Assembly (NCBI GenBank): GCA_022870745.1 | Contig: CP085323.1 | Location: 4,836,001-4,900,000, forward strand | Direction: 5' to 3' | DNA from: Silvibacterium acidisoli | Lineage (GTDB): Bacteria > Acidobacteriota > Terriglobia > Terriglobales > Acidobacteriaceae | DNA: 64,000 nt | In this document: in pieces, positions 17,501 to 33,628 of the stretch | How the letters are laid out: each line of letters opens with the position of its first letter | How positions within the stretch are numbered: the first letter of the stretch is position 1 | The notes under the pieces: generated by a model | Databases searched by the model: none | Seen by the model: the letters and a program-made list of their open reading frames with translations, nothing else | Told to the model about the DNA's origin: nothing | Made by a program: the position numbers and the translations under genes

Positions 17501-18047
17501 GCTTTAAGGCAGTTTCGAATTGAGGAATGGCGTTGCTGTAATCCTTCAACTTCAGGTAGAGCGAGCCAAGGTAGTAATAGCTGTCGGCATCACCCTGGTC
17601 TATTGCGATTGCCCGTTTGAAGTCATCGATCGCTTGAGTATTCCTGTCGCCAGCAAAATGCGTAATCCCGAGGCTGTACCAGGCGCGTACATTTTTTGGA
17701 TCGAGTGCAGTGGCTTCTTTTAGGGCGGCTTCTGCTTCAGGCAGCCTGCGCAGGTAGATAAGGGCGATGCCCTTGTTCAGGACGGGGATCGCCGAGGAAG
17801 GATCGAGCTTGTGCGCCTCCTCGAACTTGCCCAGTGCCTTGTCCGTGAACTGCTGGTTCATCAGAGCGACGCCCGTGTTGTTGGCCCTGGCAGCTTCAGT
17901 GGGGTTTGCCCCTTGATCCGCAGCATATGTGCTCGGACCACACGTTATGGCGAGCAGTAGAATCAGCCCGGCAAGCGATTTCGTCCGGATACGGAGGAAG
18001 GAAGTAGTGGCTGGATGTTGTAGAAGAGCCCGCTGTAGTTTACGCAT
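14547..18047 (-). CDS. Secreted TPR/FG-GAP/ASPIC-UnbV giant protein
   Basis: About 1166 residues. An N-terminal signal sequence (hydrophobic core LAGLILLLAITCG) precedes five or so TPRs at about residues 55-210. An FG-GAP/VCBS beta-propeller with repeated DxDxDG-type calcium loops (DYDNDGLPDL, DFDHDGDLDL, DVDNDGWIDL) runs to about 630, followed by an ASPIC/UnbV domain. A ~430-residue C-terminal region is shared with the protein at 26497-30021. The propeller resembles eukaryotic CRTAC1 and integrins. Function is unknown. TTG at 18056 extends the frame, but ATG at 18047 lies 11 nt after a perfect TATAAT, suggesting a very short leader. It is divergent from the amide-ligase operon, and its 3' end overlaps the amidase gene. 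Confidence 0.82.
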   Translation of the reverse strand: MRKLQRALLQHPATTSFLRIRTKSLAGLILLLAITCGPSTYAADQGANPTEAARANNTGVALMNQQFTDKALGKFEEAHKLDPSSAIPVLNKGIALIYLRRLPEAEAALKEATALDPKNVRAWYSLGITHFAGDRNTQAIDDFKRAIAIDQGDADSYYYLGSLYLKLKDYSNAIPQFETALKLNPLHASAQFGLASALQRSGKVDEAREHFKRFQKIVQSKIGAALTINYGEQGHNATVLDMLAPPEPVGPMIPVQFIASSMSGAKSVPAPEGGLGGGLCVLDVDGKGAKEIVAAGDGDAALRLYRFNAQGSLEEIPSQSAGLSLTGHAVACAVGDYDNDGLPDLAVSMSDRVVLFHNLGHGKFADATKAAGLGQFNRPAGLTFVDFDHDGDLDLFITGARSATSKTPNVLWRNNGDSTFTEWTGQTGLGGSGETLGAMLSDINNDRAVDLLVTGDAASPTVYENQREGAFKAVSLYDGSGPGATRGAYIFDFNKDGWMDVALTHRGAPGISLWRNVGGSHFERVTLPANGITSAWGLTAIDVDNDGWIDLAAIVETTSGPQLRVWRNRGADGFEDVSSAVGANKLSLSNPRSIIAADVNGDGAADLIVSRLHAAPIVLLNAGGSRNHSLRISLTGLADNKTAIGTKVDVFSNGHVQKFEVAGGSGYLGQGSNEIIAGLGKAATADVVRLLWPTGVPQDELDLAASKPAALQELDRRGSSCPVLFAWNGSKYQFISDVIGAGVVGHWISPTSTNKSDPDEWIKVDGSALKERRGYLSVRFGEPMEEINYIDQLRMVAIDHPADTEVYPDERFLDNPPFASGSAVVATPQAHGLNGAWDDQGRDVLRLLAAQDHQYVRDFTNLKYAGYANMHTLTLDLGDWSSNKPLRLFMRGFIEYFSASSMYAAWQAGLQPVSPYVEAQMPDGSWKRIVEDMGFPAGLPRTIVVDLTGKLPQGVRRIRIKTNLQIYWDQVLVDNGPEMAQQVRQTELPLASAHLDFRGYPQQVDGETPGDLTYRYDRISKTGPFQWQRGEYTRYGDVTPLLKQVDNHYVVFGSGEDVDAEFSDASLPPLPKGWKRDYFFYANGFVKDMDFYEAMPFTVAEMPFHEMSAYPYASSEHYPEDGRSVRYQLDWNDRFESGNRTQRYQFHYLPTPSEPITPDQASGGAR

Positions 18048-18058
18048 CGACGGCAATG

Positions 18059-18180: not shown

Positions 18181-19506
18181 ATGTCCGTGCAGCAATACGT
18201 CGAACGAGTAGTAGACCTGACCGAACCGGAAGCGAACCAGATCTTCAACCTGCCCGTCGAAGAAGCGCAGCGCGTGTTGATGGAATCCTCTGCGGAGGCG
18301 GTGGGAAAGATCCACGGTTCTTTTGCATTGATCGCCCGCGCAGGCAAAACGGTCAGGATGGCAAGGTCGCTCGACCGGCCCATGCGCTACTTCCTTGCCA
18401 AGCGGCAGGAGGGTCCGGTGCTCATCGTCGCACACCGCATCGACGACATTTACAACTGGCTGAAGAGCGAAGGCCTGCACGGACAGTTTCATCCTAGCTA
18501 CACGCGCATGGTGCCGGCGCACCACGTAGTCGAGATCCAACTGATCGGCTGCCCGGATCCCGATCCCGTATACACACGATTCTTCACCCCCGAACTTGGT
18601 ACGCTTCCGCCTGACCTTGACCGAATCGGTGAGCTGTATATTGCAGCGCTCGCGGAAGAGATTTCACAATGGCTCGACCACGTTCCGGAAAGTGACCCCA
18701 TCGGTGTCTGCTTCTCCGGCGGCATCGACAGCGGCAGTGTCTTTTTGACCACGTATCACGTGATGCAGAAACGCGGCATGAATCTGGGTCGACTGAAGGC
18801 ATTTGTACTGGACCTTGGCGATGGACCGGATGTACGGCAGGCTCGTGCGTTTCTGGAGGCCCAGGATCTCGGGCTGTTCCTTGAACCGATAGAGACGGAA
18901 GCGTCGACTCTCGATGTCCAGCAGACAATTCGAATCGTTGAGGATTACAAACCGCTCGATATCGAATCGGCAACGATGGCGCTTGCCCTATGCCGCGGCA
19001 TTCGCGACCGATATCCCGACTGGCGTCACCTGATCGACGGGGATGGCGGAGATGAGAACCTGAAAGACTATCCGATCGAGGAGAATCCGGAGCTCACGAT
19101 TCGCAGTGTCGTTCACAACTGCATGCTTTACCAGGAAGGCTGGGGGGTCGGAAAGATCAAGCACTCCCTTACATACAGCGGTGGCCTGAGCCGCTCCTAC
19201 ACACGCACCTATGCACCGGCTCACCACTTTGGCTTCTCCGGATTCAGCCCCTATACTCGGCCCAGCGTGGTTGCAATCGCAGAAGCAATTCCATTCATTC
19301 AACTTACGAACTACAGCGTAGAGAGGCTCTATGAGTTGAAGGGAGAGATTGTTGCTCGCGGCATCCATAAGCTCACAGGGCAGGACATGCCTGTCTTTCC
19401 CAAACGCCGTTTTCAGCACGGAGCCCTCCCCGAGGACGCTCTGCGGCGCAGGCTTCCTCATCATGAAACTGAATACCGCAGGCAATTCCTATCTCTTTAC
19501 CAGTGA
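18181..19506 (+). CDS. Asparagine-synthetase-like amide ligase
   Basis: A 441-residue protein of the asparagine synthase class. The ATP-pyrophosphatase loop SGGIDSGS is at residues 179-186, and a second synthetase motif IDGDGGDENLKDYP lies near 285. About 150 residues precede the loop and resemble a shrunken glutaminase domain. No catalytic cysteine follows the start Met, so it cannot use glutamine and probably uses ammonia or a substrate amine. Relatives make amide bonds in beta-lactams and lasso peptides; the product here is unknown. GAGG abuts ATG 18181 but is 6 nt from an in-frame GTG at 18187, which may be the true start. It overlaps the radical SAM gene by 4 bp and is the first gene of a three-gene operon. 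Confidence 0.78.
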   Translation: MSVQQYVERVVDLTEPEANQIFNLPVEEAQRVLMESSAEAVGKIHGSFALIARAGKTVRMARSLDRPMRYFLAKRQEGPVLIVAHRIDDIYNWLKSEGLHGQFHPSYTRMVPAHHVVEIQLIGCPDPDPVYTRFFTPELGTLPPDLDRIGELYIAALAEEISQWLDHVPESDPIGVCFSGGIDSGSVFLTTYHVMQKRGMNLGRLKAFVLDLGDGPDVRQARAFLEAQDLGLFLEPIETEASTLDVQQTIRIVEDYKPLDIESATMALALCRGIRDRYPDWRHLIDGDGGDENLKDYPIEENPELTIRSVVHNCMLYQEGWGVGKIKHSLTYSGGLSRSYTRTYAPAHHFGFSGFSPYTRPSVVAIAEAIPFIQLTNYSVERLYELKGEIVARGIHKLTGQDMPVFPKRRFQHGALPEDALRRRLPHHETEYRRQFLSLYQ

Positions 19507-20474
19507 AGCTGACGCCTGTGTATCCCGCGCGTGCCTCGGAGCGAGATGAGTGGATCCTTTCTCAGCGGCCCGCGCGTAACAATGTGGACCCGAGGAAACC
19601 GTACGCCTTTTTTGTTGAGAACGAGCGCTCCATTTCCGGCGATTTGCTTTCTGTAGCAACCATCTTTCTTACGAATCGAGAGTGCCCCTGGCGCTGCGCC
19701 ATGTGCGACCTATGGCGCAACACGTTGACGGAGACCGTGCCAATTGGAGCCATCCCGCAACAGATCGATTACGCACTGGCGAGACTTGCTCCCGCGCGCC
19801 AGATCAAGCTTTATAACAGCGGTAGCTTTTTCGACCTGCGGGCCATTCCGGAAGAGGACTATCCTGCAATTGCGGAGCGCTCCAGCCAGTTCGAGCGAAC
19901 GATCGTTGAATGCCACCCAGCGCTGATAGGCGATCGCTGCCTGCGCTTTCGCGACTTGTTGAAGAACCCCTTCGAAATCGCGCTCGGTCTTGAAACCTCT
20001 CATCCTGAAGTGCTCGAGAAGCTGAATAAACGAATCACGCTCGATCTCTTCGCCCGGGCGGCTGAATTTCTAAGACGGAACGCAATCGACTTGAGGGTTT
20101 TCATCCTCGTTCAGCCTCCATTTTTGCCGAAAGTCGAAGCTCTCGACTGGGCCATGCGCTCCATGGACTTTGCATTTGATTGTGGTGCCACGGCGATAAC
20201 ACTGATTCCTACCCGTGGCGGCAATGGTGCAATGGAGCGGTTCGCTGAGACGGGTTCCTTTACGCCCCCTGAACTCAAAACCCTCGAGGCCGCCGCGGAA
20301 TATGGCATTCGCCAACAGCGCGGGCGCATCTTTGCCGATACGTGGGATCTAAGAACGAGAACGAACGCATGCCTCATGTGTCTTGAGAGACGCATTGCAA
20401 GACTGGAGCTTCAGAACCTGTCGCAATGCATCGAAGCCCGTGTCGAATGCAGTACCTGTGGGGGCGACAGTTGA
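19503..20474 (+). CDS. Radical SAM enzyme with C-terminal Cys cluster
   Basis: A 323-residue radical SAM protein. The [4Fe-4S] motif CPWRCAMC (Cys61, 65, 68) follows a beta strand, as usual for the TIM barrel. GLETSHPEVLEKLNKR resembles the Elp3/MiaB-like subgroup. The last 35 residues hold five more cysteines (290, 293, 309, 316, 319), fitting an auxiliary iron-sulphur cluster or zinc site. The reaction is unknown. It starts with GTG overlapping the stop of the amide-ligase gene (GTGA), and the FAD enzyme begins 5 bp after its stop. The three proteins therefore probably act in one pathway. Confidence 0.85.
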   Translation: MKLTPVYPARASERDEWILSQRPARNNVDPRKPYAFFVENERSISGDLLSVATIFLTNRECPWRCAMCDLWRNTLTETVPIGAIPQQIDYALARLAPARQIKLYNSGSFFDLRAIPEEDYPAIAERSSQFERTIVECHPALIGDRCLRFRDLLKNPFEIALGLETSHPEVLEKLNKRITLDLFARAAEFLRRNAIDLRVFILVQPPFLPKVEALDWAMRSMDFAFDCGATAITLIPTRGGNGAMERFAETGSFTPPELKTLEAAAEYGIRQQRGRIFADTWDLRTRTNACLMCLERRIARLELQNLSQCIEARVECSTCGGDS

Positions 20475-20479
20475 GAGCA

Positions 20480-22015
20480 ATGTACGATATCGCCATCGCG
20501 GGCTCCGGATTCGCCGGCTCGCTGACTGCGATGGTCGCGCGCAGACTCGGCCTTTCCGTAGCGATCGTGGAGCGTGGCAGCCATCCCCGCTTCATGATCG
20601 GTGAATCGTCCACGCCGCTTTCCAATCTTCTGTTGGAAGAGTTGGCAAACACCTACGATCTGCCCGCTATCCGTCCGCTTACGAAATGGGGCAGCTGGCA
20701 ATCGCGACATCCCACCATCGGGTGCGGCCTCAAGCGAGGGTTTACTTTCTACCACCATGGCCTCGGCCAGCCAGGAGCCATCGGACGCGAAAACTCTTTG
20801 CTCGTTGCAGCCAATCCACATGACCGCATTGCTGACACCCACTGGTACCGCGCAGACTTCGATCATTTCCTGCTGCAACAGGCGCAGGAAATGGGCGCGG
20901 ACTACTACGACGAAACAAGTCTTGAGTCGTTACGCGAATTGCCCGATCTGTTGGAGATCTCAGCTACAAGACACGGCCAACCGGTCCATCTAGGTGCAAA
21001 GTTCCTGGTGGATGCGACGGGGCCGCGTGGGTTTCTTCATCGGGCTCTTAATCTAGATGAACTACCACTGCCGAACTACCCGAAGACCCAGGCTCTCTAC
21101 AGCCACTTCACCTCCGTTGAGCGGATCGATGAATTGCACGATGTTCACGAAACACCGCCGTATCCAATTGACGACTCGGCCCTCCACCATCTCTTCGATG
21201 GAGGATGGGTATGGGTGCTTCGCTTCAACAATGGCAGGGTCAGTGCGGGGGTTGCCGCCAACGAATGGATCGCCAGCCAGTTCAACTTTTCCGAAGGAGA
21301 ATCTGCGTGGCGCCGCCTGCTCGCACAACTGCCTGCAGTGCGTGAGCAATTTGAGGGCGCGTCGGCAGTAGAGCCGTTTCGCCACATCTCTCAACTCAGT
21401 TTTTGCAGCTCTAAGATTAACGGAAAGCGATGGGCGCTTCTTCCATCCGCGGCAGGGTTTGTCGATCCCCTGCTCTCGACGGGCTTTCCTCAAACGCTGC
21501 TGGGTATCAGTCGCATGGCGAACATCCTCAAGCATCGTTGGGACTCGCCATCCATGGAGGAATACCTGGCAACGTACTCCATGCAGACGGGAAACGAATT
21601 GCTGGCTACCGCACGCCTTGTCTCAGGGCTCTACGCCAACATGGGGCGCAGTCATCTCTTCAAGGCAATTGCACTGCTCTATTTCGCAGCAGCAAGCTTC
21701 TCGGAGACTGCGCGGCGGTTAAACAAACCTGACCTCGCACCGTCCTTTCTTCTTAATGACCATCCAAGCTTCGGTCCTGCCTGTGAACGCCTGCTGGAAC
21801 TCTCTTTGCACATAAAAACTCAGCACGACGAAGAGCGATTGATTGCAGAGATCATGCAGACGATTGAGCCTATCGATGTTGCCGGGCTGTGCCGCGCCGA
21901 CAGGAATAACTGGTATCCCGTCGACGCGAAAGACCTGCTTGATGCAGCTCACAAGGTAGATTCAAATCGCAAAGAGATCCAAGAGCTCTTGAACAGTTGC
22001 GGATTCTATCCCTAG
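20480..22015 (+). CDS. Flavin-dependent halogenase-like FAD oxidoreductase
   Basis: A 511-residue FAD protein. The N-terminal Rossmann motif GSGFAG (residues 8-13) is followed by IGESSTP, the position of the GEST/GEAT motif of flavin-dependent halogenases. A lysine (Lys85, in GLKRGFTF) sits where the catalytic lysine of halogenases is expected, and AGFVDPLLSTG matches the halogenase DP...S.G motif. The WxWxIP motif is altered to WVWVLRF, so halogenation is possible but not certain; an oxidase or reductase is the alternative. No flavin reductase is nearby. ATG 20480 was chosen because it begins the Rossmann strand directly and lies 5 bp after the upstream stop. The 3' end overlaps the convergent FG-GAP gene by 4 bp. 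Confidence 0.78.
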   Translation: MYDIAIAGSGFAGSLTAMVARRLGLSVAIVERGSHPRFMIGESSTPLSNLLLEELANTYDLPAIRPLTKWGSWQSRHPTIGCGLKRGFTFYHHGLGQPGAIGRENSLLVAANPHDRIADTHWYRADFDHFLLQQAQEMGADYYDETSLESLRELPDLLEISATRHGQPVHLGAKFLVDATGPRGFLHRALNLDELPLPNYPKTQALYSHFTSVERIDELHDVHETPPYPIDDSALHHLFDGGWVWVLRFNNGRVSAGVAANEWIASQFNFSEGESAWRRLLAQLPAVREQFEGASAVEPFRHISQLSFCSSKINGKRWALLPSAAGFVDPLLSTGFPQTLLGISRMANILKHRWDSPSMEEYLATYSMQTGNELLATARLVSGLYANMGRSHLFKAIALLYFAAASFSETARRLNKPDLAPSFLLNDHPSFGPACERLLELSLHIKTQHDEERLIAEIMQTIEPIDVAGLCRADRNNWYPVDAKDLLDAAHKVDSNRKEIQELLNSCGFYP

Positions 22016-23835
22016 CGCTGACCTGCTTTGGGAAGAGCTGCAAAGTGGATTGGTTCTGCTGCGGTCATGCCTTTGCCCTCCTCCAGCGTAATCGATTGGT
22101 TCGGCTCAATATTCTTGACCGTCTCTCTCTTGCCGCTGGGCCATACGATCTCAAGGGTCACTGGCTTGTCCGCATCAGGTTTACCCAGGCCGAATGTCAC
22201 AGGTAATTCACTTTGAGACAGGTAGCTCGAGCCGTCCTTAACCATCGCGAAAAGTTTCTGGCCTCGACTGTTCCGGACAATAATCTTCGCACCGATACCA
22301 TCGCGGTTCGACTTGGTTCCGATCGTCTTTACTCGAAGCACATCGTTCTGGTTGCCGTTCTCATTGCGAAACAACTTTGCCGGGCCATTGCTGGTTGTCA
22401 TGACAAGGTCCAGATCGCCGTCGTTGTCGTAGTCGAGATACGCTGCGCCACGGCCCACCACCGGCTGGCGAAGTGCCGGTCCAACTTTGGCGGTAACGTC
22501 TTCGAATTTACCGTTTCCCTTGTTGTGGAACAGCAAAGGAGGCTCTGCGTAGTGCAATGAGGGTGTGTTCACACTTACATCGTCGGCAACGTGACCATTA
22601 GCGGCCAATATATCAGGCAGTCCATCGAGATCATAGTCAAAGAAGAACGTGCTGAAAGTGAGCGAACTCAGGGACGCAGGACCGATCCCGTCCGTTGCTG
22701 CGTTATCCGCGAAGAGACCGGAACCGTCATTCTTGTAGAGTGCAATCCCCTCGTTCGCAAAGTTTCCGATCACCAATCCCTGATGGCCAGAGAGATCGTA
22801 GTCGGCTGCATCGGCGCCCATACCAGCGCGAGCCTTCCCTGCATCGCTGAAGGCAACACCCGATGCAAAGGCCTCATCGGTGAACGTGCCGTTGTGGTTG
22901 TTGTGGTAAAGCTTGTTGGCCTGGGTATCATTCGCAACGAAGAGATCGAGCCAGCCATCGTTGTCGTAATCGATCAGTGCGACCCCCAGCGACTTGCTGG
23001 ACGGGTCATAGAGACCAGCCTTCTTGGTCACATCTTCGAACCTGCCATTGCCGAGGTTGTGAAAGAGCGTCGCACTCTCGCCCTTGTAAAGCTCAGGCGT
23101 GCAGTACGATTTATGTTTTCCGTCGAGCGAGCATTTCTGGTCAGTCTCAAGTGACCATTGCACGTAATGCGACACGAACAGGTCGAGCTTTCCGTCATTG
23201 TCGTAGTCGAACCATACCGCCCCGGTTGCAAAGCCGGGATCTCGCACACCAGACTTTGCGGTCACATCAATGAACTTGCCATCGCGCTGATTGTGGAACA
23301 AGTGGTTGCCATCCAGCGCAGTGATGTAGATGTCTTCCCTGCCATCGTTATCGAAATCAGCGACCGCGCACCCGAGACCATACACCTGCACTGCCAGTCC
23401 CGCCTGTTGTGTCACATCGGTAAAGGTTCCGTCATGGTTGTTATGGTAGAGCGCCGGATACGACCGGGTTCCGCTCTCATGGCCGCGCCAGTCCATCGAG
23501 TTGACGAACAGGATGTCCTGCCAGCCATCGTTATCGTAGTCGAGCGCGCAGACGCCGCTGCCCATCGTTTCCGGAAGATACTTCTGACCGAACGCACCGC
23601 TGTGGTGATGGAAGTGGATACCTGCCGGCGCTGTCACATCCGTAAAGCGAATCGATCCGGAAGGCCTCGGAGTCGCTTCAGATACAGACGCCGGGGGAAG
23701 ACTCTTTACGGAACTATCCGCCGGCGTCGTTTTTTCCTCCGGTGCAACGGCAGGAGCAGATGACTTGCAGGCAGAGGCCAGAAGAAGAATTCCTGAGAGA
23801 AACAAGGAACAGGTGGTTCGAATACGCAACGACAT
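22012..23835 (-). CDS. CRTAC1-type FG-GAP/ASPIC-UnbV lipoprotein
   Basis: A 607-residue exported protein. The leader ends in a lipobox-like LLASAC, giving a probable lipoprotein. A Pro/Ala/Thr-rich linker is followed by a beta-propeller of FG-GAP/VCBS repeats with many calcium loops (ALDYDNDGWQDI, VADFDNDGREDI, WFDYDNDGKLDL, LIDYDNDGWLDL). A C-terminal ASPIC/UnbV domain closes it (IGAKIIVRNSRGQ, LEIVWPSGKRETV). It is the last gene of a four-gene minus-strand operon and is convergent with the halogenase-like gene. UnbV-like proteins occur in enediyne clusters with no assigned reaction. Here it may bind or present the product of the neighbouring operon, but that is inference. Confidence 0.85.
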   Translation of the reverse strand: MSLRIRTTCSLFLSGILLLASACKSSAPAVAPEEKTTPADSSVKSLPPASVSEATPRPSGSIRFTDVTAPAGIHFHHHSGAFGQKYLPETMGSGVCALDYDNDGWQDILFVNSMDWRGHESGTRSYPALYHNNHDGTFTDVTQQAGLAVQVYGLGCAVADFDNDGREDIYITALDGNHLFHNQRDGKFIDVTAKSGVRDPGFATGAVWFDYDNDGKLDLFVSHYVQWSLETDQKCSLDGKHKSYCTPELYKGESATLFHNLGNGRFEDVTKKAGLYDPSSKSLGVALIDYDNDGWLDLFVANDTQANKLYHNNHNGTFTDEAFASGVAFSDAGKARAGMGADAADYDLSGHQGLVIGNFANEGIALYKNDGSGLFADNAATDGIGPASLSSLTFSTFFFDYDLDGLPDILAANGHVADDVSVNTPSLHYAEPPLLFHNKGNGKFEDVTAKVGPALRQPVVGRGAAYLDYDNDGDLDLVMTTSNGPAKLFRNENGNQNDVLRVKTIGTKSNRDGIGAKIIVRNSRGQKLFAMVKDGSSYLSQSELPVTFGLGKPDADKPVTLEIVWPSGKRETVKNIEPNQSITLEEGKGMTAAEPIHFAALPKAGQR

Positions 23836-23855
23836 CAGATCTTGTCCTTCTATTG

Positions 23856-24716
23856 TTACGAAGCGGTCACCGCAGCCATTGACGCGGCTTTACGGGAATT
23901 CAGCCACATTTCGATCAGCAATGCCGCCGGACCAACCATAAATAACGCATATAGTGGCGCGTAGATACTTTGATCCAGCCTCAGGAAGAATTCTACAAAG
24001 GCGATGCAGAACGCAACCAAAGACTGACCGACCTTTGACTGCACGGTTGTTCGGGGGTCGGTGATCATGAAGAAGATGAACAGCTGATATTCGGGACCAG
24101 TGATAGGGGAGATTTCGGCCTGCCACGGATCGTGCAGGATCGTCGCACGTAGAAATGCAAAAGCGGCAAACGACAACACGTAGACAGCGGTGATGTGAAA
24201 GCGGCGATGGCGGGCTATGATGAACGAGCCAAGCGCCCAGATCACCAGCATGGCCGCAAGGTTATTGCCCCACTGAATGCTCAGGCTTGCCACTGTATCC
24301 GCGGCAAGGAACAGCATTACACAGATGCCGAAGTTCGAGGGGTTCCATAGATGCCTTCCCTTCACCCGCAAAACATACTTCGAGGTAATGGTGATCAACG
24401 CGCACAAAGCATAAGGCCAGAATGCGGGGGAGCGCAGCAGGATACCGACGCTGATACCGCTGATGTAAGCACTCGCGAGGTTTGGCCATTTCTTGTAGAA
24501 GACTCGCCCCAGAACAAGTTCTGCAACGATGCTGGTTGCAATAGCCAGCATCGTTCTCTGATAGCTTTCAAGAATTCCGAAGCTGAGATGGCCTACCAGC
24601 AGAATAAGAGTGATAAACAGCGGCGGCACATACCGGCTGTCAAGGTTCAGCCACCTCTTCCACTGCGGGGGTTCTTTCGCGGGTGCGGCTGGAGTCGTTA
24701 TGGCCGACGGGCTCAT
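23856..24716 (-). CDS. RnfD/NqrB-fold membrane protein, UnbU-like
   Basis: A 286-residue polytopic membrane protein with about eight to nine hydrophobic segments. NPSNFG (125-130) and FFMITDPRTT (215-224) match conserved points of the RnfD/NqrB family, the second corresponding to FMATDPxTS. I do not see the S/T-GAT motif that carries covalent FMN in RnfD and NqrB. Enediyne clusters encode a homologue of this fold, UnbU, next to UnbV, and the pairing here with ASPIC/UnbV proteins on both sides points to that branch. Other rnf genes are absent, so a Rnf complex is unlikely. It overlaps the upstream 595-residue protein gene by 4 bp. Confidence 0.75.
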   Translation of the reverse strand: MSPSAITTPAAPAKEPPQWKRWLNLDSRYVPPLFITLILLVGHLSFGILESYQRTMLAIATSIVAELVLGRVFYKKWPNLASAYISGISVGILLRSPAFWPYALCALITITSKYVLRVKGRHLWNPSNFGICVMLFLAADTVASLSIQWGNNLAAMLVIWALGSFIIARHRRFHITAVYVLSFAAFAFLRATILHDPWQAEISPITGPEYQLFIFFMITDPRTTVQSKVGQSLVAFCIAFVEFFLRLDQSIYAPLYALFMVGPAALLIEMWLNSRKAASMAAVTAS

Positions 24717-26500
24717 TCTGGCTCCTCAATTGTATAGAGCTTCCCGGCAGCCGGGCTGTTAATCGTCTGAACTTTCCCGGATGGCCAGCGGATCACCGCT
24801 TTTTCAATCTGCGGATTCTTGCCCAGACCGAAATGCAAACGTCGATCATTCTGAGCGGCGAAGCCAGAGCCTCCGGATATTTCCTGCTTCTGCTCCTGTC
24901 CATTCCAGTAAAGCGACACCTCGGCACCAATCGCACTGCGGTTGCTCTTCGTGCCCTGAAGCGCAAATTCGATCCATTGATTTTCTGGATTCACATTGTT
25001 TTTGTAGACCAATAGCGGGCCGCGCTGATTTGCCACCACGACGTCCAGCACTCCACGATTCCAGAGATCGGCAAAGGCGACCGCCCGGCCGTCATGCGTG
25101 TCGGTCACGCCGACAGCCTGTGCAACGTCGACAAACTTCCCGGCTCCATCGTTCATCCAGACATGCTTCTGTTGATAACCCGACAGGCTGCGTCCCGTCA
25201 TCGCGGGCCAGTCTTTTGCATCGCCAATGATGGAGGAATTGCCGCCCGCCACCTTGGAAAAGTCATACCAATAATTGCGCTGCTTATCGAGGGATACGTA
25301 TCCGTTTGTCAGAAACAGGTCGAGAGTGCCGTCATTGTTCAAATCGCCGAACTGTGCCCCGAAGCTCCATCCGCCAAGTTCCACCCCCATGTCGCGCGCA
25401 AGGTTTTCGAACTTGATGTCACTGCCCCCCGTTCCTTCTTTCGGAACCCAGAGATTATTACCCTGAATCAGGACACCCTCTTCCGAGATATTGGAGACAT
25501 ATACGGAGTAGCGTCCCTGATTAAGAATGTCTCCAAAAGCCACATTCATACCGCTTTTCGGAGCAAAACCGACACCGGTCTGCGCGCCTGCATCATGAAA
25601 TCGCTTGCCGTCGTTCAGAAACAGCTCGGCAACTCCGTAGTCGTTCGCGACGAAGAGATCCGGATGCCCCGTGCCGCGCAGGTCGGCTGCGCCCGCTGCA
25701 AGAGCCCACCGCCGGCTGGAGATCCCTACTTTGGCGCTAACCTCTTCGAACCTTCCTCCGCCAAGATTATGGAAGAGATATTTTCTGCCTCCGTTCTTCG
25801 CGTATTCAAAGCTCTCAGGCATCATCTTTGTATTCTTCAGGTGCCATAGGTCGACGTTTTCGGGATAATACCCACCAACAAAGAGATCGAGACGCCCATC
25901 GCCGTCGTAGTCGAACCAGACGGCCGTATTGGCATTTATCCACGCAGGCAGACCTGCCTGATCGCTTACGCGCGTGAAGCCCTTGCCATGATCGTTATGA
26001 AAGAGTTCGGGCCTGCCCCACTTGATCAGAAAAAAATCTTCGTATCCGTCGTTGTCATAGTCGCCCCAGACAGTACCCATCGAAACTCCGGTGCCCTGCT
26101 GGTTCACGTCCGCAACTCCCATCGCTTCGGCGACATCTTTGAATGTGCCGTCATGCTGGTTCCGGTAGAGACGATTCCTGCTTCCCTCTTTGCTGTCGGT
26201 AACGTATATGTCGGGCCATCCGTCGCGATCGAAGTCAACGATCGAGACGGATGCTCCCATCGAAGCGACCTCCGGCATGATATGCGCAAGCTGCGAATCA
26301 AGCGTCGGTCCCTGGTGTACGAAATCGATGCCCGCCTGGTGCGATACTTCTTCCAGGTAAAAGCCGTGCCGTTGCATCGCCGCGCTCATGCCCTGGGTAG
26401 CAGCCGATTGCTTATGCCGTGCCGAGATACGCCGGATAATGATCGGAGTAACAATGAGCCCGATGAACAACACAATCAACACGATCCGCGCGCGCTTCAT
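24713..26500 (-). CDS. Membrane-anchored FG-GAP/ASPIC-UnbV protein, UnbV-like
   Basis: 595 residues. One N-terminal transmembrane helix (about residues 5-22) is followed by RR and a basic stretch, so it is probably an uncleaved anchor. The rest is a calcium-type FG-GAP propeller (VDFDRDGWPDIYV, WGDYDNDGYEDF, WFDYDGDGRLDL, GDLNNDGTLDLF) ending in an ASPIC/UnbV domain (IGAEVSLYWNGQ, VIRWPSGKVQTI). Overlaps of 4 bp with both the UnbU-like gene and the upstream giant gene imply coupled translation. The UnbV-UnbU adjacency copies the enediyne accessory pair, but no polyketide synthase is present. Confidence 0.83.
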   Translation of the reverse strand: MKRARIVLIVLFIGLIVTPIIIRRISARHKQSAATQGMSAAMQRHGFYLEEVSHQAGIDFVHQGPTLDSQLAHIMPEVASMGASVSIVDFDRDGWPDIYVTDSKEGSRNRLYRNQHDGTFKDVAEAMGVADVNQQGTGVSMGTVWGDYDNDGYEDFFLIKWGRPELFHNDHGKGFTRVSDQAGLPAWINANTAVWFDYDGDGRLDLFVGGYYPENVDLWHLKNTKMMPESFEYAKNGGRKYLFHNLGGGRFEEVSAKVGISSRRWALAAGAADLRGTGHPDLFVANDYGVAELFLNDGKRFHDAGAQTGVGFAPKSGMNVAFGDILNQGRYSVYVSNISEEGVLIQGNNLWVPKEGTGGSDIKFENLARDMGVELGGWSFGAQFGDLNNDGTLDLFLTNGYVSLDKQRNYWYDFSKVAGGNSSIIGDAKDWPAMTGRSLSGYQQKHVWMNDGAGKFVDVAQAVGVTDTHDGRAVAFADLWNRGVLDVVVANQRGPLLVYKNNVNPENQWIEFALQGTKSNRSAIGAEVSLYWNGQEQKQEISGGSGFAAQNDRRLHFGLGKNPQIEKAVIRWPSGKVQTINSPAAGKLYTIEEPE

Positions 26501-29500
26501 TTCCCCGATGAACCCCTTAGTGCGTTGTTAAAACCTTCCGGAGTGACATAGCGCGTTTGCCAGGTATTCCAGTCAGCTGCGTGATGCTTGTACTCCCAAT
26601 CCTCTGCCAGTGTCGACGGAGGTGTGTCGTATTCGTTCCGTGCATGGTAGGGATACGGGAGAACGGTCTTTGAATTCGTCGAGTTGTAATCGCCGTCCTT
26701 GATCCAGCCGTCGCCCGCGATAACATAATCGCGAACCCATCCGCTTGGCGGAGGCGCAGGTGCTGCGAATCGTAACGACATCTCGTCACCCGCGTTCATG
26801 ATGACGTAGCGATCGTCGACGCCGGCAAGCAGCGGACGAACATCGCCATAGCGCGTGTAGTATCCCTCCAGATCGCGCCAGATCTGCGTCGACGCGAGGA
26901 GCTGGTTATAGTCAGGAATCTCAGGAGAAGAAGCATTTGCCTGATGAATGACCGAATACCCGCGGTAGTGCAGATCAGCGGATGCGGGTTCTAGCTTCCC
27001 GACCTGCACCGAGGTGTCCGGCAGCCCCTTCGCCCATTGGATGCGATCCCAATAGACTTCTAAATTTGTGCGCAGGCGCAGCCTGCGTGGAGCGCCCGGC
27101 ACAAACACTCCCGAGATGTCGATTAAGCAGGTCTTGTTACGTCCAGCGGGGAAACCAAGGTTCTCCTTCACCGTCTTCCACCCACCGCGCCCATCCGACA
27201 CTTCAAGACTCAGCGGACGAGGCGCAGGATGATTGCCCTGGCTCATTGCGATGTTCAGAGACGAATCCGACGGATGCAGCCACCCCTGCGCGATCAGCCA
27301 GACGGGGCCGGATGTGGGTACATCATCGCCAAGTTCGATTTCGACATAGTGGTCACGCGTGATTCCCTGGTACTGCCCTCTCCCGAAATTGTCGAGGTAT
27401 CGCCCATCCAGAGACTTCACAACATCGGTTACATCTTCACCGTTATCATCGACAGCGCGAGCGATGGGCTGCGGCTCTGCAGTAGCGGTCACCGATGGCT
27501 TCACAGCGGGCACCGAATAACGCTCATCCGTGAAAACCTCGGTGCCGGCAGGATGATCGACCGTCATCAACTGCAGGTAGTCGTAGTAATAGGTCTCCCA
27601 CAACTCACCCGTGATGCGCAGATCATAGTAGCCGTCATGAGGCAGGAGCTGGTCGCCCCTGATCTTGTACCACTCCTCGGTTGCGCCGATCCGTGCAGAA
27701 CCAAGAGCATTGATGCGCAGGCCGATTGCAGAACCCCAGGGAACAGTGTCTTTTACGAACTCCATTCGCTTACCGTTAAAAGCGAAGAGAAACGGACATG
27801 ACCCCTTAAGCCGCTGCTCAGTCACAATCTGCTGATCGGCCTTCAGTGCAAACTCTGCACGCACAGATCCGTTGGGCCAAACGATCCTGGCAACATCAAC
27901 TCCAGTTTGCCGGCCCAGTCCGAAGTGCAGCGAGGGGCTGGTAATCGGCTGCTTTTGTACAAGCAGGCCCGAACGAACTTCAATATCGCCGCCAATGCCA
28001 AACGAATTAACGCGTTGATCGCCAGTTGTCTGGCGGGCCCGTGCGCGAATCGTCTGCCAGTGATAATTCTTTGTCTGGTGATTCACCTCGTCGACGGCTT
28101 GTCCGTCAGATGACACGCCGAGCAGATCAATACGTCCATCATCCTTAAGATCGGCCAGACCAAAGATCCTTGCCGAAGCCACAGGCTGACTGATGAGCGT
28201 GAAGTGTGACTGTTCATCCTGCAACCAGATCAGCGGATTCTGAGGAGACTCGACCGGCGCGAGTAAGAGATCCAACGCCCCATTGTTGTCGATGTCACCC
28301 GCGAACAGGCGGACCTGATGCGCAAGGTAGGCTGCAGCGTTTGGCACGGTCGCAATGGTCGATTCATGCCAATCCATTCCATCGGCTGGAAGCGAAAGCG
28401 CTACCACTTCGCCATTTGCGCGAACCACGAGGAGGGCAAAGTTGCCGTCGTGGTTCACATCTCCTACAGCGAGGGCCTTTACATTGTCGAATCCTGAAGG
28501 GAGCGGCTGCTCGTGAAAACGTCCCGAGCGCTCGTTCATGAAGACATGCAAGTGCCCGGCGCCATCGATCAAAGAAGCCTCCGGGTTGCCATCGCCGTTG
28601 AGATCTGCCCAAACGAATTGTCGAATACCTGACACGCCTGAGAACGGATGGATGGGCTGGAAAGTGCCGTCGCCGTTGTTGCGTAAAACCGCCGGCTCCC
28701 CAGCCTCGCTGCCCATCACAATATCCAAGTCGCCATCGGCTTCAATATCGGCAGCCCAGGCGCCGCTGTAAGACGCATTCAGGATCGATGAAGTCAGCCT
28801 CGTCTGCGCCGAGACATCAATGAACTTCGACACGTCATCCTGCCGCATGAAGCGAACGCCTCCCGCTCCAGCAAGAACCAGGCCTGTCTTGAAGTCATAG
28901 TTGAAATCAACAGGCACGACGCCTTCCGGAGAGGGAGCAGTCGTGCTGCCGGGAAACGACAGGCCCGCGCCGGTAGAAAGATGCACCTCGTGTGCATTGG
29001 CTGCGGCAACCACCGGATCTCCCGTGCCGTTGAGATACACGGCTCCAACCCAGTCCCATTTGCCCGCCGGAATGTTTGCCAGCCGCTGCGGAGTGAAGGC
29101 AAGAGCACTGTCCGAAGGGGCTGGCTCAAATACGGGCGTCGCCAGTCGCAGGAAGCGAGTGAAAGGGATTGCTTCTTCGCCGGGTTGAGGTTTTATCTGG
29201 GAGAGATTCGAGCGGAATTCCGGCAACTGCATCAGCACATTCCGCAGAAAGACGGAGCGTGTCGCCGCCGGCCTTGGCTCGGGGCCGAGGGTTGCCGCTT
29301 GCAGTGACATCAACTGTTGTTTGATATCGGCGGGCCACGCAGCTGACTGCGCCGCAATCTTCTCTACCGTCGCCCGCAGTGTCGCAACATCTCCGCGCTT
29401 CGCTGATATCCGGCTCAGCTCCAGCAGCGCTGCGAGATTCTTCGGTTGCACAGAGAGAATCTGTTGCATCAGCTTCTGAAAATCGGCGTCGCTGTTTGCG

Positions 29501-30021
29501 TCACCCTGGCGCTCTACTTCCGATGCCAGTTGGTAGATTGCCCGCAGATTCTGCGGATTCTCCTGGGCTGCATCGCGAAGATGAGCGATAGCCTGCGAGG
29601 AGTTTCCCCGGTCGCTTTCAAGGAGTCCGAGCAGATAATCCAGGCGATCATTTTTTGGCGCGAGTTCCTTTGCCCGTCCAAGCCGTTGCGCGGCCGCATC
29701 AAAGCTGCGCTGACGCAGCGCCAGGATGCCCCAGTTTGCCCAACCGGCAGGCTCTCCGGGCACCATCTGCGCTGCCTGCCCCAGGTTCGCGTCGGCCCTC
29801 ACGTCGTCTCCTACCTGCAGAGCCGCAAGCCCCACATAAAAGGTTCGAGTGAAATCCGCGTATGCCTGCGACTTCGGCTCGGGGAGTTTTGAAGCAGAGT
29901 GGCAGCCGACTCCCAGCAGAGCGCCGACCGTCATAAGAACAATAGAGATTCGTTGCGGAACCGAAAGCAAGCGGAAAGCCCTGCGGACCCGACCCGGCCC
30001 GTACGATGATGAGGAGTTCAT
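26497..30021 (-). CDS. TPR/FG-GAP/ASPIC giant lipoprotein
   Basis: About 1174 residues. The leader ends LLGVGC, a plausible lipobox. TPRs occupy about residues 50-230, followed by FG-GAP repeats to about 640 (less regular than its paralogues) and a degenerate ASPIC segment (LHFGLGRQTG, ARIVWPNGSV). A long C-terminal region is shared with the protein at 14547-18047. Shared points include SCPFLFAFNGK versus SCPVLFAWNGS, RLRTNLEVYWDRI versus RIKTNLQIYWDQV, and YTRYGDVRPLL versus YTRYGDVTPLL. The frame is open to 30057, but ATG 30021 starts the signal peptide cleanly. It is first in the operon with UnbV-like, UnbU-like and CRTAC1 genes, and diverges from the ABC operon. Confidence 0.82.
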   Translation of the reverse strand: MNSSSSYGPGRVRRAFRLLSVPQRISIVLMTVGALLGVGCHSASKLPEPKSQAYADFTRTFYVGLAALQVGDDVRADANLGQAAQMVPGEPAGWANWGILALRQRSFDAAAQRLGRAKELAPKNDRLDYLLGLLESDRGNSSQAIAHLRDAAQENPQNLRAIYQLASEVERQGDANSDADFQKLMQQILSVQPKNLAALLELSRISAKRGDVATLRATVEKIAAQSAAWPADIKQQLMSLQAATLGPEPRPAATRSVFLRNVLMQLPEFRSNLSQIKPQPGEEAIPFTRFLRLATPVFEPAPSDSALAFTPQRLANIPAGKWDWVGAVYLNGTGDPVVAAANAHEVHLSTGAGLSFPGSTTAPSPEGVVPVDFNYDFKTGLVLAGAGGVRFMRQDDVSKFIDVSAQTRLTSSILNASYSGAWAADIEADGDLDIVMGSEAGEPAVLRNNGDGTFQPIHPFSGVSGIRQFVWADLNGDGNPEASLIDGAGHLHVFMNERSGRFHEQPLPSGFDNVKALAVGDVNHDGNFALLVVRANGEVVALSLPADGMDWHESTIATVPNAAAYLAHQVRLFAGDIDNNGALDLLLAPVESPQNPLIWLQDEQSHFTLISQPVASARIFGLADLKDDGRIDLLGVSSDGQAVDEVNHQTKNYHWQTIRARARQTTGDQRVNSFGIGGDIEVRSGLLVQKQPITSPSLHFGLGRQTGVDVARIVWPNGSVRAEFALKADQQIVTEQRLKGSCPFLFAFNGKRMEFVKDTVPWGSAIGLRINALGSARIGATEEWYKIRGDQLLPHDGYYDLRITGELWETYYYDYLQLMTVDHPAGTEVFTDERYSVPAVKPSVTATAEPQPIARAVDDNGEDVTDVVKSLDGRYLDNFGRGQYQGITRDHYVEIELGDDVPTSGPVWLIAQGWLHPSDSSLNIAMSQGNHPAPRPLSLEVSDGRGGWKTVKENLGFPAGRNKTCLIDISGVFVPGAPRRLRLRTNLEVYWDRIQWAKGLPDTSVQVGKLEPASADLHYRGYSVIHQANASSPEIPDYNQLLASTQIWRDLEGYYTRYGDVRPLLAGVDDRYVIMNAGDEMSLRFAAPAPPPSGWVRDYVIAGDGWIKDGDYNSTNSKTVLPYPYHARNEYDTPPSTLAEDWEYKHHAADWNTWQTRYVTPEGFNNALRGSSGK

Positions 30022-30160: not shown

Positions 30161-31012
30161 ATGTGTATGTCTAAGATGAGCGGAAGCGATTCGATTCCTC
30201 AGAGAGCAGACATGCAGGCGAGCGGAGGCAGACAGAAAATGCGCCACGGATGGTCAAGGTTCGTGGTGGCTCTACGTCCGTTTCTGTTTATCGCTCTGCT
30301 GATCGTAGCCTGGGACATCGCGGTACGCAGGCAGCCGGCGCACCTGCTTCCCACACCCTGGGAAACAGTCGGCGGCATCCTGGATCTCGTACGCCACAAC
30401 CTGCTTCTCAAATACGTGGTCGCGTCGCTTTTTCGCGTCACGTGGGGATTCAGTCTGGCGGCGATTCTTGCCATTCCGCTGGGGCTTGCGATCGGGTGGT
30501 ACCGCCGCGCAGAGATGGCGTTGAATCCGATTCTGCAGATTCTGCGGCCCATATCTCCGCTTGCATGGATACCCATCGCAATTCTCTGGTTCGGCGTCGG
30601 CGACCTCTCGGCGGTCTTTCTCATTTTCGTAGGCTCGTTTCTACCCCTGCTGCTTACGTCGATCAATGCCGCGCGCAGCGTTCCCGATGTATATGTCAAT
30701 GCCGGGCGCAACTTCGGACTTGGCCCGATGCAACTCATCGCGCGAATTTTCTATCCAGCTGTCATGCCGCAATTGATCGTTGGCTTGCGAATCACGCTCG
30801 GAGTGGCTTGGTTGGTGGTCGTGGCTGCTGAAATGATTGCGGTAGACTCGGGTCTTGGATTTCTGATCGTCGATGCAAGAAATGCAGGCAACCGCTACGA
30901 TCTGGTCGTGGCCGGCATGGTCATCATCGGGCTCATCGGCTTTCTCCTCGATGTAGGAATGCGTTCGCTCGAGAAGGTGAAGTCATTCCGCTGGAGCTAC
31001 TCGGAGGATTAG
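30161..31012 (+). CDS. ABC importer permease, SsuC/TauC type
   Basis: A 283-residue inner-membrane permease of the nitrate/sulphonate/taurine class. The EAA-like coupling loop reads NAGRNFGLGPMQLIARIFYPAVMPQLIVGLR in pieces, and it has about six transmembrane helices. A 40-residue basic cytoplasmic tail precedes the first helix. GGAGG lies 10 nt before the ATG. It is first in a six-gene operon and closely resembles the second permease at 31798, with near-identical central blocks (ILRPISPLAWIP, VAAEMIAVDSGLG). The two probably form a heterodimeric channel with the ATPase between them. Confidence 0.88.
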   Translation: MCMSKMSGSDSIPQRADMQASGGRQKMRHGWSRFVVALRPFLFIALLIVAWDIAVRRQPAHLLPTPWETVGGILDLVRHNLLLKYVVASLFRVTWGFSLAAILAIPLGLAIGWYRRAEMALNPILQILRPISPLAWIPIAILWFGVGDLSAVFLIFVGSFLPLLLTSINAARSVPDVYVNAGRNFGLGPMQLIARIFYPAVMPQLIVGLRITLGVAWLVVVAAEMIAVDSGLGFLIVDARNAGNRYDLVVAGMVIIGLIGFLLDVGMRSLEKVKSFRWSYSED

Positions 31013-31015
31013 TAC

Positions 31016-31801
31016 GTGGTAACAAAAGAAGTCGAAGCAGCTCCAGGATTGAAAACCAAACTCTCCGTTGACAACGTGAGTATGACCTACAAGCGTGACG
31101 GCAAACTCACGCACGTTCTCGAAAACGTGAATCTCGAGGTCAGCGATGGCGAATTTGTATGCCTGCTAGGCCCATCGGGATGCGGCAAGACAACACTCCT
31201 GAACACAATGGCCGGATTTCTCACTCCGACAAGCGGAACGATTCAGGTAAACGGCGAAGCTGTCCGTGGCCCCGACCCGCGCCGCATCTTTGTCTTCCAG
31301 GAGCGCGGAGTCTTCCCTTGGCTTACCGTCGAGGGCAATATCGGTTTCGGGCTATCGAAGCTTACGAAACCGGAACGTGAGCAGCGTATCGCCCACTACG
31401 TCAAAATGGTCGGGCTGCAAGGCTTTGAAAAGTCTTATCCCGCTGAACTCTCAGGCGGAATGAAGCAGCGGCTGGAAGTCGCGCGAGCGTTGGCCGTCAA
31501 TCCTGACATGCTCTTTCTAGACGAGCCTTTCGGCGCCCTCGATTCCATCACACGACTGGTCATGCGGAGCGAGCTGCTTCGCATCTGGCAAGCCGAGCGC
31601 AAGACAATCATCTTCGTCACGCACGATATCGACGAGGCAGTCCAGCTTGCCGATCGCGTGGTGGTAATGAGCGCTCGTCCCGGAACAATCCAACAGATTG
31701 TACCGATCGATATCGCACACCCGCGAGATATCAGCTCACAGCACTATCTCGAACTGCGCGACGGAATCTTCAAACAGATCGGACTGGCCCACCAGGTATG
31801 A
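31016..31801 (+). CDS. ABC importer ATPase, SsuB/TauB type
   Basis: A 261-residue ABC ATPase with Walker A (GPSGCGKTT), Q-loop (VFQERGVFPWL), signature (LSGGMKQR), Walker B (MLFLDEPFG) and switch histidine (VTHDIDEAVQLADR), all intact. It follows the NrtD/SsuB pattern and energises the permease pair. The start is GTG at 31016 with GGAGG 8 nt upstream, 3 bp after the first permease. The stop overlaps the second permease start by 4 bp. Confidence 0.92.
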   Translation: MVTKEVEAAPGLKTKLSVDNVSMTYKRDGKLTHVLENVNLEVSDGEFVCLLGPSGCGKTTLLNTMAGFLTPTSGTIQVNGEAVRGPDPRRIFVFQERGVFPWLTVEGNIGFGLSKLTKPEREQRIAHYVKMVGLQGFEKSYPAELSGGMKQRLEVARALAVNPDMLFLDEPFGALDSITRLVMRSELLRIWQAERKTIIFVTHDIDEAVQLADRVVVMSARPGTIQQIVPIDIAHPRDISSQHYLELRDGIFKQIGLAHQV

Positions 31802-32580
31802 ATTCACTCGCCGCACCCCAAAGATGGGAAAAGATTTTTTGGCCGCTGGTGGCGACAGCTCTGCTGCTGCTCCTGTGGCATTTCTCTGTCATATGGTCCG
31901 GCACAAAGATCTTCCCCTCGCCACGGGATGTCGGGAGAGGAATGCTTGAACTCTTCCGTCACCACGTTCTATGGGCTGACATACGCGATTCAGTGCGCCG
32001 CGTGCTGATCGGTTTTGGTATTGCGGCCGTACTCGGCATACCAATGGGTTTGCTTCTTGGCTGGTATCCGGCTGCTAACCAGGTCGTCAATCCGGTGATG
32101 CAGATCCTTCGCCCCATCAGCCCCATCGCGTGGATCCCTGTAGCAATCATCTTTTTTGGCATCGGGGATCGTGCGGCAGTCTTTCTTATCTTCCTGGGCT
32201 CATTCTTTCCAATCGTCGTGGCCTGTATCAATGGTGTCTCAAACGTGCCGTCAGTGTTTCGCCGCGCGGGGCGCAACTTCGGGCTCACTCCGATGCAGCT
32301 GCTGACACGCGTTGTATTTCCCGCGGCACTCCCGCAGATCCTTGTCGGCCTTCGTATCGCATTGGGAATCGCATGGCTGGTCGTGGTCGCGGCGGAAATG
32401 ATCGCCGTAGACTCTGGGCTGGGGTATCTTGTCATCGACTCCCGCAACTCCGGTAAGCGCTACGACCTTGTGATTGCGGCAATCCTCCTTATCGGCGTTA
32501 TCGGTCTTATCCTGGATCTCATCTTCCGCAGCCTGGAGCGGCTCAAGCCATTACGCTGGGGGTTCCGCAATGTCGCCTAA
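31798..32580 (+). CDS. ABC importer permease, second subunit
   Basis: A 260-residue permease paralogous to the one at 30161, with about six helices and the coupling loop RRAGRNFGLTPMQLLTR. Having two different permease genes instead of one self-associating permease is uncommon for SsuC/TauC systems and suggests an internal duplication. The start overlaps the ATPase stop (ATGA), and the stop lies inside the next gene by 11 bp. Confidence 0.88.
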   Translation: MNSLAAPQRWEKIFWPLVATALLLLLWHFSVIWSGTKIFPSPRDVGRGMLELFRHHVLWADIRDSVRRVLIGFGIAAVLGIPMGLLLGWYPAANQVVNPVMQILRPISPIAWIPVAIIFFGIGDRAAVFLIFLGSFFPIVVACINGVSNVPSVFRRAGRNFGLTPMQLLTRVVFPAALPQILVGLRIALGIAWLVVVAAEMIAVDSGLGYLVIDSRNSGKRYDLVIAAILLIGVIGLILDLIFRSLERLKPLRWGFRNVA

Positions 32581-33628
32581 AAGGATCGCACTGCTCTGCT
32601 TCGCTGGATGGCTGGTCATCATTACAGGTCTCCATTCCTGGCTGAACGTCAACTGGAGCGCGATCCTGAACGATTTCCGGCCGCCGGAGAAACGCAAAGT
32701 CACCGTCGCATACCTTCCCGTCACCTGCCAGCTCACCTGCCCGGTGACCGATTACATCTCGAAGTTTTCCGAAAACGGCGAGCTCTTTATGCCGCGCATG
32801 TTCCAGGGCTTTCCCGAAGTCAAGGAAGCCCTGATATCGAACAAAGTACAGGCAGCCTTCGTTGTCGCTCCGCTTGCCATCGCCCTTGTATCCCAGGGGG
32901 TGCCTATTAAGGTCGTATACCTCGGCCATCGTTATGGCAGCGCGATGGTCGTTCGCAAGGGCGGCCCGGTAAAAACTTTTGCCGATCTCAAGGGACGAAC
33001 CGTTGCCATCCCCAGCCGCTTCTCCGATGAGCGCCTGATCCTCTTCCGCGCGATGAAGGTCTGGGGCATGAAGCCCGGGGATATCAAGATGGTGGAGATG
33101 GCGCCACCCGACGTCTCAGGCGCACTGGCTGCCGGCGCCATCGATGGCTTCGTCATGGGTGAGCCTTTTCCATCGCAGGCAGAATTGGGCGGCTTCGGAC
33201 GCGTTCTCTTCCAGGCCCGCGACTACTGGCCTGACTACATGTCCTGCATCCTCGTTGTTCGTCAGGATGTTATCGACCAGCGCCCTGAAACCGTGCAGGT
33301 ACTGGTCGACGGCATTGCACGCTCCGGCTTGTGGCTCGATAAAGGTAAACCATATCGCGAAGACGCAGCAGAGTTCGTTGGCCGCTACTACTACAACCAG
33401 AAACCTGCTCTGCTCCGCTGGGCACTCACCAAGCCAATGGACCGCGTGGTATACAGCCCGCTCGCGCCACGTAAGGCAGACTTCGATATGGTTCGCGATC
33501 TCATGATCGAGACGGGCGTTCTCAAGAAGAAGATTGAATTTTCCGACTACACCGACACACGCTTCGCCGACCGCGCCAGCATTCAAACAGCATGGAAATA
33601 TCAGCCGGGCATTGCGTCCGCGAAATAG
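32570..33628 (+). CDS. ABC substrate-binding protein with CxxxC motif
   Basis: A 353-residue NMT1/SsuA-like periplasmic-binding-protein fold. The N-terminal helix (about residues 5-22) has no clear cleavage site, so the protein may stay membrane-anchored. Just after the first beta strand, Cys53 and Cys57 (TCQLTCP) stand at the entrance of the predicted ligand cleft, where taurine or nitrate binders have no such pair. A thiol-coordinated metal or a thiol compound is therefore a reasonable guess. ATG 32570 was chosen because it gives the N-terminal helix directly and overlaps the permease stop by 11 bp; the open frame upstream lies within the permease gene. Confidence 0.82.
   Translation: MSPKRIALLCFAGWLVIITGLHSWLNVNWSAILNDFRPPEKRKVTVAYLPVTCQLTCPVTDYISKFSENGELFMPRMFQGFPEVKEALISNKVQAAFVVAPLAIALVSQGVPIKVVYLGHRYGSAMVVRKGGPVKTFADLKGRTVAIPSRFSDERLILFRAMKVWGMKPGDIKMVEMAPPDVSGALAAGAIDGFVMGEPFPSQAELGGFGRVLFQARDYWPDYMSCILVVRQDVIDQRPETVQVLVDGIARSGLWLDKGKPYREDAAEFVGRYYYNQKPALLRWALTKPMDRVVYSPLAPRKADFDMVRDLMIETGVLKKKIEFSDYTDTRFADRASIQTAWKYQPGIASAK

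Follow-up and report, generated by a model that had tools for sequence, protein, structure and literature searches.

The G-V-U-C locus of Silvibacterium acidisoli

The window analysed here is a 64,000-nucleotide stretch (CP085323.1, 4836001-4900000) of the genome of Silvibacterium acidisoli, which consists of one contig of 5.36 Mb. Four minus-strand genes, named G, V, U and C in their order, lie within it. G (26497..30021) encodes a giant lipoprotein with an N-terminal TPR region, FG-GAP repeats, a partial ASPIC domain and a conserved 442-aa C-terminal domain; its open reading frame (ORF) reaches 30057 with a TTG start. V (24713..26500) encodes an FG-GAP/ASPIC protein of 595 aa whose N-terminus carries a hydrophobic anchor, U (23856..24716) a 286-aa membrane protein with the RnfD fold, and C (22012..23835) a 607-aa CRTAC1-type lipoprotein with FG-GAP repeats and an ASPIC domain. 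The G/V and V/U junctions overlap by 4 bp each, and U and C are separated by 20 bp; the operon layout described in an earlier, sequence-only reading of this DNA was confirmed on the sequence. V and U are homologues of the enediyne proteins UnbV and UnbU, and in the genomes searched they are paired without an enediyne polyketide synthase (PKS).

Enediynes are DNA-cutting drugs. UnbU (RnfD-like) and UnbV (ASPIC) are conserved accessory genes beside enediyne PKS genes, and correspond to E5 and E4, respectively, of the enediyne cassette, on which work on diiodotetrayne was reportedly done as well. In the literature, the cassette is written E10/E/E5/E4/E3 (PMC5181780), the enediyne core and iodoanthracene both derive from it (PMC9464397), and what exactly TnmE3/E4/E5 do is “still uncertain” (PMC11069151); the accessible portions of PMC3174227 and PMC3909097 merely mention ASPIC/UnbV domains. 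The operon was not found in the literature searched, which covers few subscription journals and was available in part, and we do not claim its absence from print.

U matched PF03116, the NCBIfam rnfD model reached only E=0.084, and the RnfD fold was predicted for U; no further PF03116 match was present in the window genome. The PDB sequence search with U returned one hit at chance level. With V, the sole chain at E<=0.01 was Cartilage acidic protein 1 (9etn). For the predicted C-terminal domain of G (pLDDT 80.8), a Foldseek search returned nothing at E<=0.001, and we left the short partial matches of this model, CBM32/APC10-like, without interpretation.

Conservation of the G-V-U unit

We searched a sample of 297 genomes of the phylum and scanned contigs with an alignment of 14 U proteins. 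The best 80 of the 302 relatives reported by the scan were kept, so the spread of G-V-U given here is a lower bound. Together with 13 loci from the phylum sample these made 93 loci, or 89 distinct loci after removal of four duplicates. Counts for loci “with room” refer to those whose stretch extends far enough, and 53 loci have full flanks. V was directly upstream of U at 80/80 distinct loci with room, and G directly upstream of V at 72/73. C lay downstream of U at just 49 of 78 distinct loci with room (2/14 outside Acidobacteriota), which is why we regard G-V-U as the core unit. A strict four-gene unit was rejected: the part of the proposed operon that held is the constant G-V-U, but its CRTAC1 lipoprotein is optional. 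The last four bases of V were ATGA at 68 and GTGA at 15 of 90 loci (83/90 together, duplicates included); such an end permits a 4-bp overlap with U as in the window, the U starts not having been inspected locus by locus.

Strong U matches (at least 308 bits) occurred in 14 of the 297 phylum genomes, that of the window included, and 18 more genomes scored 110 bits or less. Strong V matches (at least 523 bits; next best 436) came from the same 14 genomes and from none of the other 283 (Fisher 3e-24, with species not independent). G orthologues (at least 843 bits; next 464) were found in those 14 and in G199, G206 and G077. The genes do co-occur elsewhere, as the sequence-only reading expected of a real unit, both in these 14 genomes and over the 89 distinct loci. 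Carriers other than metagenome-assembled genomes (MAGs) span Acidobacteriota, Planctomycetota and Balneolota, and include Silvibacterium, Acidicapsa, Acidipila, Aquisphaera, Rhodopirellula and Fodinibius. In Pseudomonadota, Bacteroidota, Armatimonadota, Rhodothermota and Abditibacteriota, every carrier is a MAG, judging by its title; misbinning is possible for MAG carriers, since L142, L149 and L163 fall beside Acidobacteriota rows in the V trees.

Comparison of V with UnbV and other ASPIC proteins

Streptomyces, Sinorhizobium and Serratia plasmids supplied the reference enediyne cassettes, together with loci of the same phylum (L052, L058, L060); some of the Streptomyces genes carry the annotation “enediyne biosynthesis protein UnbU”. 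FG-GAP repeats followed by a C-terminal ASPIC domain are common to V, to enediyne UnbV (L063) and to CRTAC1/ASPIC lipoproteins (PF07593). Three V trees were calculated. The first had 32 V rows, without the incomplete UnbV of L060 and the duplicate plasmid L070; for the second, three long C rows were removed and 12 more rows thinned out, and the third, under a mixture model, was thinned to 54 rows. V and UnbV joined at 99/98 in the second tree and at 95/95 in the third. CRTAC1-type rows split from V at 100/99 and 100/98 in the first and second trees, respectively, and in the third V, UnbV and ketosynthase (KS)-associated rows split together from the remaining rows at 100/100. Comparison of profile hidden Markov models (HMM-HMM) gave E-values of 1.6e-60 for V/UnbV, 5.2e-94 for V/CRTAC1 and 2.6e-34 for UnbV/CRTAC1.

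Unlike the CRTAC1 proteins, V contains an insert of about 25 residues, which is also present in UnbV and in the KS-associated V-like rows. V further carries the motif M-x(1,3)-S-x(2,5)-A-x-NGG, found in 32/32 V and 8/8 UnbV rows and in none of the 46 other ASPIC rows (24 C, 4 paralogues, 14 KS-associated and 4 giants).

A distinct UnbV-like subfamily was observed in eight stretches of other Acidobacteriota, L208-L215 (e.g. L209:4660-6468). Its best copies are 38-43% identical to V and have an insert of the same length, but no U match was seen in the eight stretches read and the M-x-S-x-A-x-NGG motif was absent from the 14 rows. KS, acyl carrier protein (ACP), FabA-like or DUF1702 genes lie near the V-like gene in 4/8 stretches (L209, L211, L214, L215), and tandem V-like copies accompany a giant TPR/FG-GAP protein in 3/8.

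Comparison of U with UnbU, RnfD/NqrB and standalone relatives

For the first U tree we drew on the 13 loci of the phylum sample, on 27 of the 80 kept from the contig scan, and on the window; for the second, 7 long or odd rows were omitted and the G-V-U rows thinned from 41 to 21. In the first tree, which had the long plasmid row L064 inside, the U proteins of G-V-U formed one clade and UnbU another, and the two were joined at 96/93; with the long rows omitted, they were joined at 98/94. RnfD/NqrB made up one side of the trees at 100/99 and 100/100. The identity of U to UnbU is 25-30%. HMM-HMM comparison gave E-values of 1.3e-28 for U/UnbU, 6.1e-7 for U/RnfD and 1.4e-8 for UnbU/RnfD, and standalone proteins of the DUF2330 type scored 2.9e-35 against U and 7.6e-22 against UnbU.

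The threonine that bears covalent flavin mononucleotide (FMN) was present in 12/12 RnfD/NqrB rows, whereas a gap stood at its position in 41/41 U, 10/10 UnbU and 16/16 standalone relatives, in which the whole covalent FMN segment is missing. Moreover, U has H122 and R190 where RnfD/NqrB (PF03116) have N and L/F/G, and U and UnbU have NPSN and M[I/V]TDPxTT-type motifs in common. An ordinary RnfD/NqrB identity of U was rejected on the tree, the missing FMN segment and the HMM scores; the grouping with RnfD/NqrB in place of UnbU, which would have spoken against the proposed kinship, was not seen.

Two further associations of this membrane fold were noted. In three phylum genomes an UnbU-like protein and DUF2330 (PF10092) are joined in a single ORF (L048:9535-11691, L050:9117-11777, L051:8139-10370); these fused proteins also lack the FMN segment, and DUF2330 is another partner of the fold. 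On a Metabacillus plasmid, a lone U-like gene (L064:7300-8687) and an AhpC/TSA redoxin gene share a 4-bp overlap.

V-U pairs and enediyne cassettes

V directly precedes U in both G-V-U loci and enediyne cassettes. The V/U junction is a 4-bp overlap in the cassettes L058, L060 and L063, as in the window, a 2-bp gap in L052, L067, L068 and L069, and a 144-bp gap in Serratia L066. In contrast to the cassettes, G-V-U loci carry the constant giant lipoprotein G, and their V and U fall into clades separate from those of UnbV and UnbU. With the S. clavuligerus query, no full-length PksE was found in any of the 14 V-U genomes of the phylum (best 255 bits, partial KS/acyltransferase), and two controls gave full-length matches (G257, 1624 bits; G152, 1251 bits). 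UnbL/DUF1702 (PF08012) was detected in none of the 14 and in 4/4 control genomes of the same phylum. Near the 89 distinct loci, which outside the phylum were the only sequence searched, there was no UnbL match and one weak PksE hit of 32 bits. Parts of ordinary type I PKS and ketosynthase genes are present in the 14 V-U genomes. On the PksE and DUF1702 searches, an enediyne cluster hidden elsewhere in the genome was rejected for these 14.

The earlier idea of a PKS-independent relative of the UnbV-UnbU pair was therefore upheld insofar as a homologous pair is kept without the enediyne PKS in 14 genomes, but in the best trees it is placed as sister to the enediyne pair and not within it. Culturable carriers such as Granulicella sp. 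S190 (G103), which belongs to the window organism's family and in which no full-length PksE was found, would let the pair be studied without a toxic product or a PKS, and so the role of two puzzling helper proteins could be addressed outside drug synthesis.

Two loci on the enediyne side deserve mention. L058, from a genome of the window organism's own family (G257), holds an enediyne-type cassette of UnbV, UnbU, UnbL, PksE and a thioesterase. In the 17 kb read from a Serratia proteamaculans plasmid (L066), genes for a methyltransferase, a glycosyltransferase and one lone ketosynthase adjoin those for DUF1702 and for UnbV-like and UnbU-like proteins; PksE is absent from this stretch.

Recurrent neighbours of G-V-U

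Three modules recur beside G-V-U in varying orientation. The first comprises, all on the plus strand in the window, an asparagine-synthase-like gene (AsnB; 18181..19506), a RaSEA-like radical S-adenosylmethionine gene with CxxxCxxC (rSAM; 19503..20474) and a gene for a flavin halogenase/QhpG-like monooxygenase, convergent with C (FAD; 20426..22015). They were found at 37, 38 and 38 of the 89 distinct loci, and at 30, 30 and 29 of the 53 with full flanks. Duplicates included, AsnB and rSAM occur at the locus in Acidobacteriota and Planctomycetota, and FAD in Acidobacteriota only. At E<=1e-28, rSAM was present in 9/14 V-U genomes and in 21/283 phylum genomes without V-U, 11 of the 21 being from one genus. 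Of nine genomes reached via the loci, two betaproteobacterial MAGs had no rSAM. In four of the other seven its position places it at the G-V-U locus; in the remaining three, Fodinibius (AsnB-rSAM-FAD) and two Rhodopirellula (rSAM-FAD), it lies apart from that locus. Five genomes had no rSAM in the locus stretch, one of them (L176) without upstream sequence; in three of the five it lies elsewhere in the genome. In G199, AsnB-rSAM-FAD-G follow one another on a single strand, V-U being absent (L207:4721-12012), which ties G to the enzyme trio. The recurrence of these enzymes hints at the substrate of the V-U pair and points to biosynthesis or modification more than to simple adhesion.

The second module is an ABC importer, divergent in the window (30161..33628, plus strand; permease, ATPase, permease and SsuA/NMT1-type binding protein). 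Its binding protein was found at 20/89 loci (14/53 with full flanks) and its ATPase at 28/89 (19/53), where an ATPase match alone may belong to another ABC system. Channels for urea and ammonium have a fold similar to that of RnfD. U might accordingly be a channel or permease for which V and G capture the substrate, in a system interchangeable with, or complementary to, the adjoining SsuA-type importer; we consider such an uptake role improbable.

The third set is redox-like and comprises, besides a NapH/MauN-like polyferredoxin, a YtkA-domain protein, a His-rich membrane protein and a second small protein. The polyferredoxin stands beside 22/89 distinct loci (15/53 with full flanks), and the window genome holds three of the four genes at a separate site. 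ATPase plus permease never occurred alongside the polyferredoxin (0/15 vs 17/38 of the 53 full-flank loci, p=0.001, a guide as the loci are related). The sequence-only reading had considered an extracytoplasmic redox module. In such a module U would move electrons across or within the membrane like RnfD/NqrB, with V, G and C as outer partners and the polyferredoxin, YtkA-domain and His-rich proteins feeding it. The polyferredoxin lends this idea some support but is missing from 38 of the 53 full-flank loci, and the proposal is weakened by the covalent-FMN threonine being found in 0/41 U proteins: the loss of the flavin site speaks against plain electron transfer in the manner of RnfD. Inspection of the sequences further showed that V of the window has no Cys and U no CxxC, which still leaves room for a His-bound haem. 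On balance, we hold electron transfer to be unlikely, if somewhat less so than uptake.

The His-rich protein of this set is about 200 aa long, with many conserved His residues in the motifs HWxEH, LHY, FWHHxEH and LHLFYN. It was found as L129:1403-2059 and relatives in 20 loci, each time with the NapH-like polyferredoxin (20/20); the copy in the window genome is L202:10928-11527. The L129 protein had no Pfam or NCBIfam match.

Possible role of the V-U pair

We favour, with slightly better than even confidence, the reading that G-V-U forms a conserved complex in the envelope, where a small molecule is handled or finished, with the V-U pair used outside polyketide synthesis. In this model, the polytopic U would sit in the membrane, the anchored V and the large lipoprotein G would act outside the cytoplasm, and the lipoprotein C would join them in many Acidobacteriota. 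The complex might take up, hold or oxidatively finish a small molecule, one that is probably imported or soluble in the membrane. In many hosts the cytoplasmic AsnB-rSAM-FAD enzymes would make or modify this molecule or, alternatively, a peptide. In enediyne clusters, V-U may do the equivalent job on the PksE polyene. The sequence-only reading had suggested that the pair may have a more general part in handling reactive or exported molecules.

Several points weigh against this reading. We infer the complex itself solely from gene order. Nor is the enzyme trio obligatory for V-U genomes or confined to them, since 5/14 of these lack rSAM and 21/283 others have it. By raw HMM-HMM score, V is nearer to CRTAC1 proteins than to UnbV, and U nearer to the DUF2330-type standalone proteins than to UnbU. 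Approximately unbiased (AU) tests left alternative placements of V standing (p 0.415 and 0.467), as well as two alternatives for U with DUF2330-type proteins (p 0.285 each). The UnbU rows L059 and L066 and the UnbV row L066 were labelled by similarity, with no PksE in their stretch. The V/UnbV motif was picked after the alignment had been viewed, and was the one complete and exclusive pattern of four tried; the other three matched 17/32 V and 1/8 UnbV, 13/32 and 1/8, and 25/32 and 8/8, the last also occurring in 9/14 KS-associated rows.

The undecided AU placements would also suit an ordinary surface-protein operon, in which V and U were distant members of broad families (ASPIC, PF03116) and their likeness to UnbV-UnbU had no functional meaning. 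ASPIC/FG-GAP proteins are indeed common in the window genome, where matches to V comprise 17 segments in 7 genes by position, V itself counted, and G-like proteins occur in 93/297 genomes at E<=1e-60. However, V and U are paired in the same gene order as in enediyne cassettes, the V end allows the overlap at most loci, and the V/UnbV motif is confined to these two groups among the rows compared; we regard this explanation as the least probable of those considered, and quite improbable.

Returning to the envelope complex, a bolder extension is conceivable, although we advance it as a tentative and rather doubtful one. G-V-U and AsnB-rSAM-FAD together might represent an unrecognised biosynthetic class over several phyla, in which the cytoplasmic enzymes would build or modify a non-polyketide molecule or peptide and V-U, at the membrane, would perform the same step as on the enediyne precursor. 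If true, V-U would be a general membrane tailoring enzyme that was recruited by enediyne clusters.

Giant TPR proteins flanking the locus

Two more giant TPR proteins flank the locus in the window, at 14547-18056 (minus strand) and 34971-38402 (plus strand). One has FG-GAP repeats and an ASPIC domain with a G-like C-terminal part, and the other contains DUF5107.

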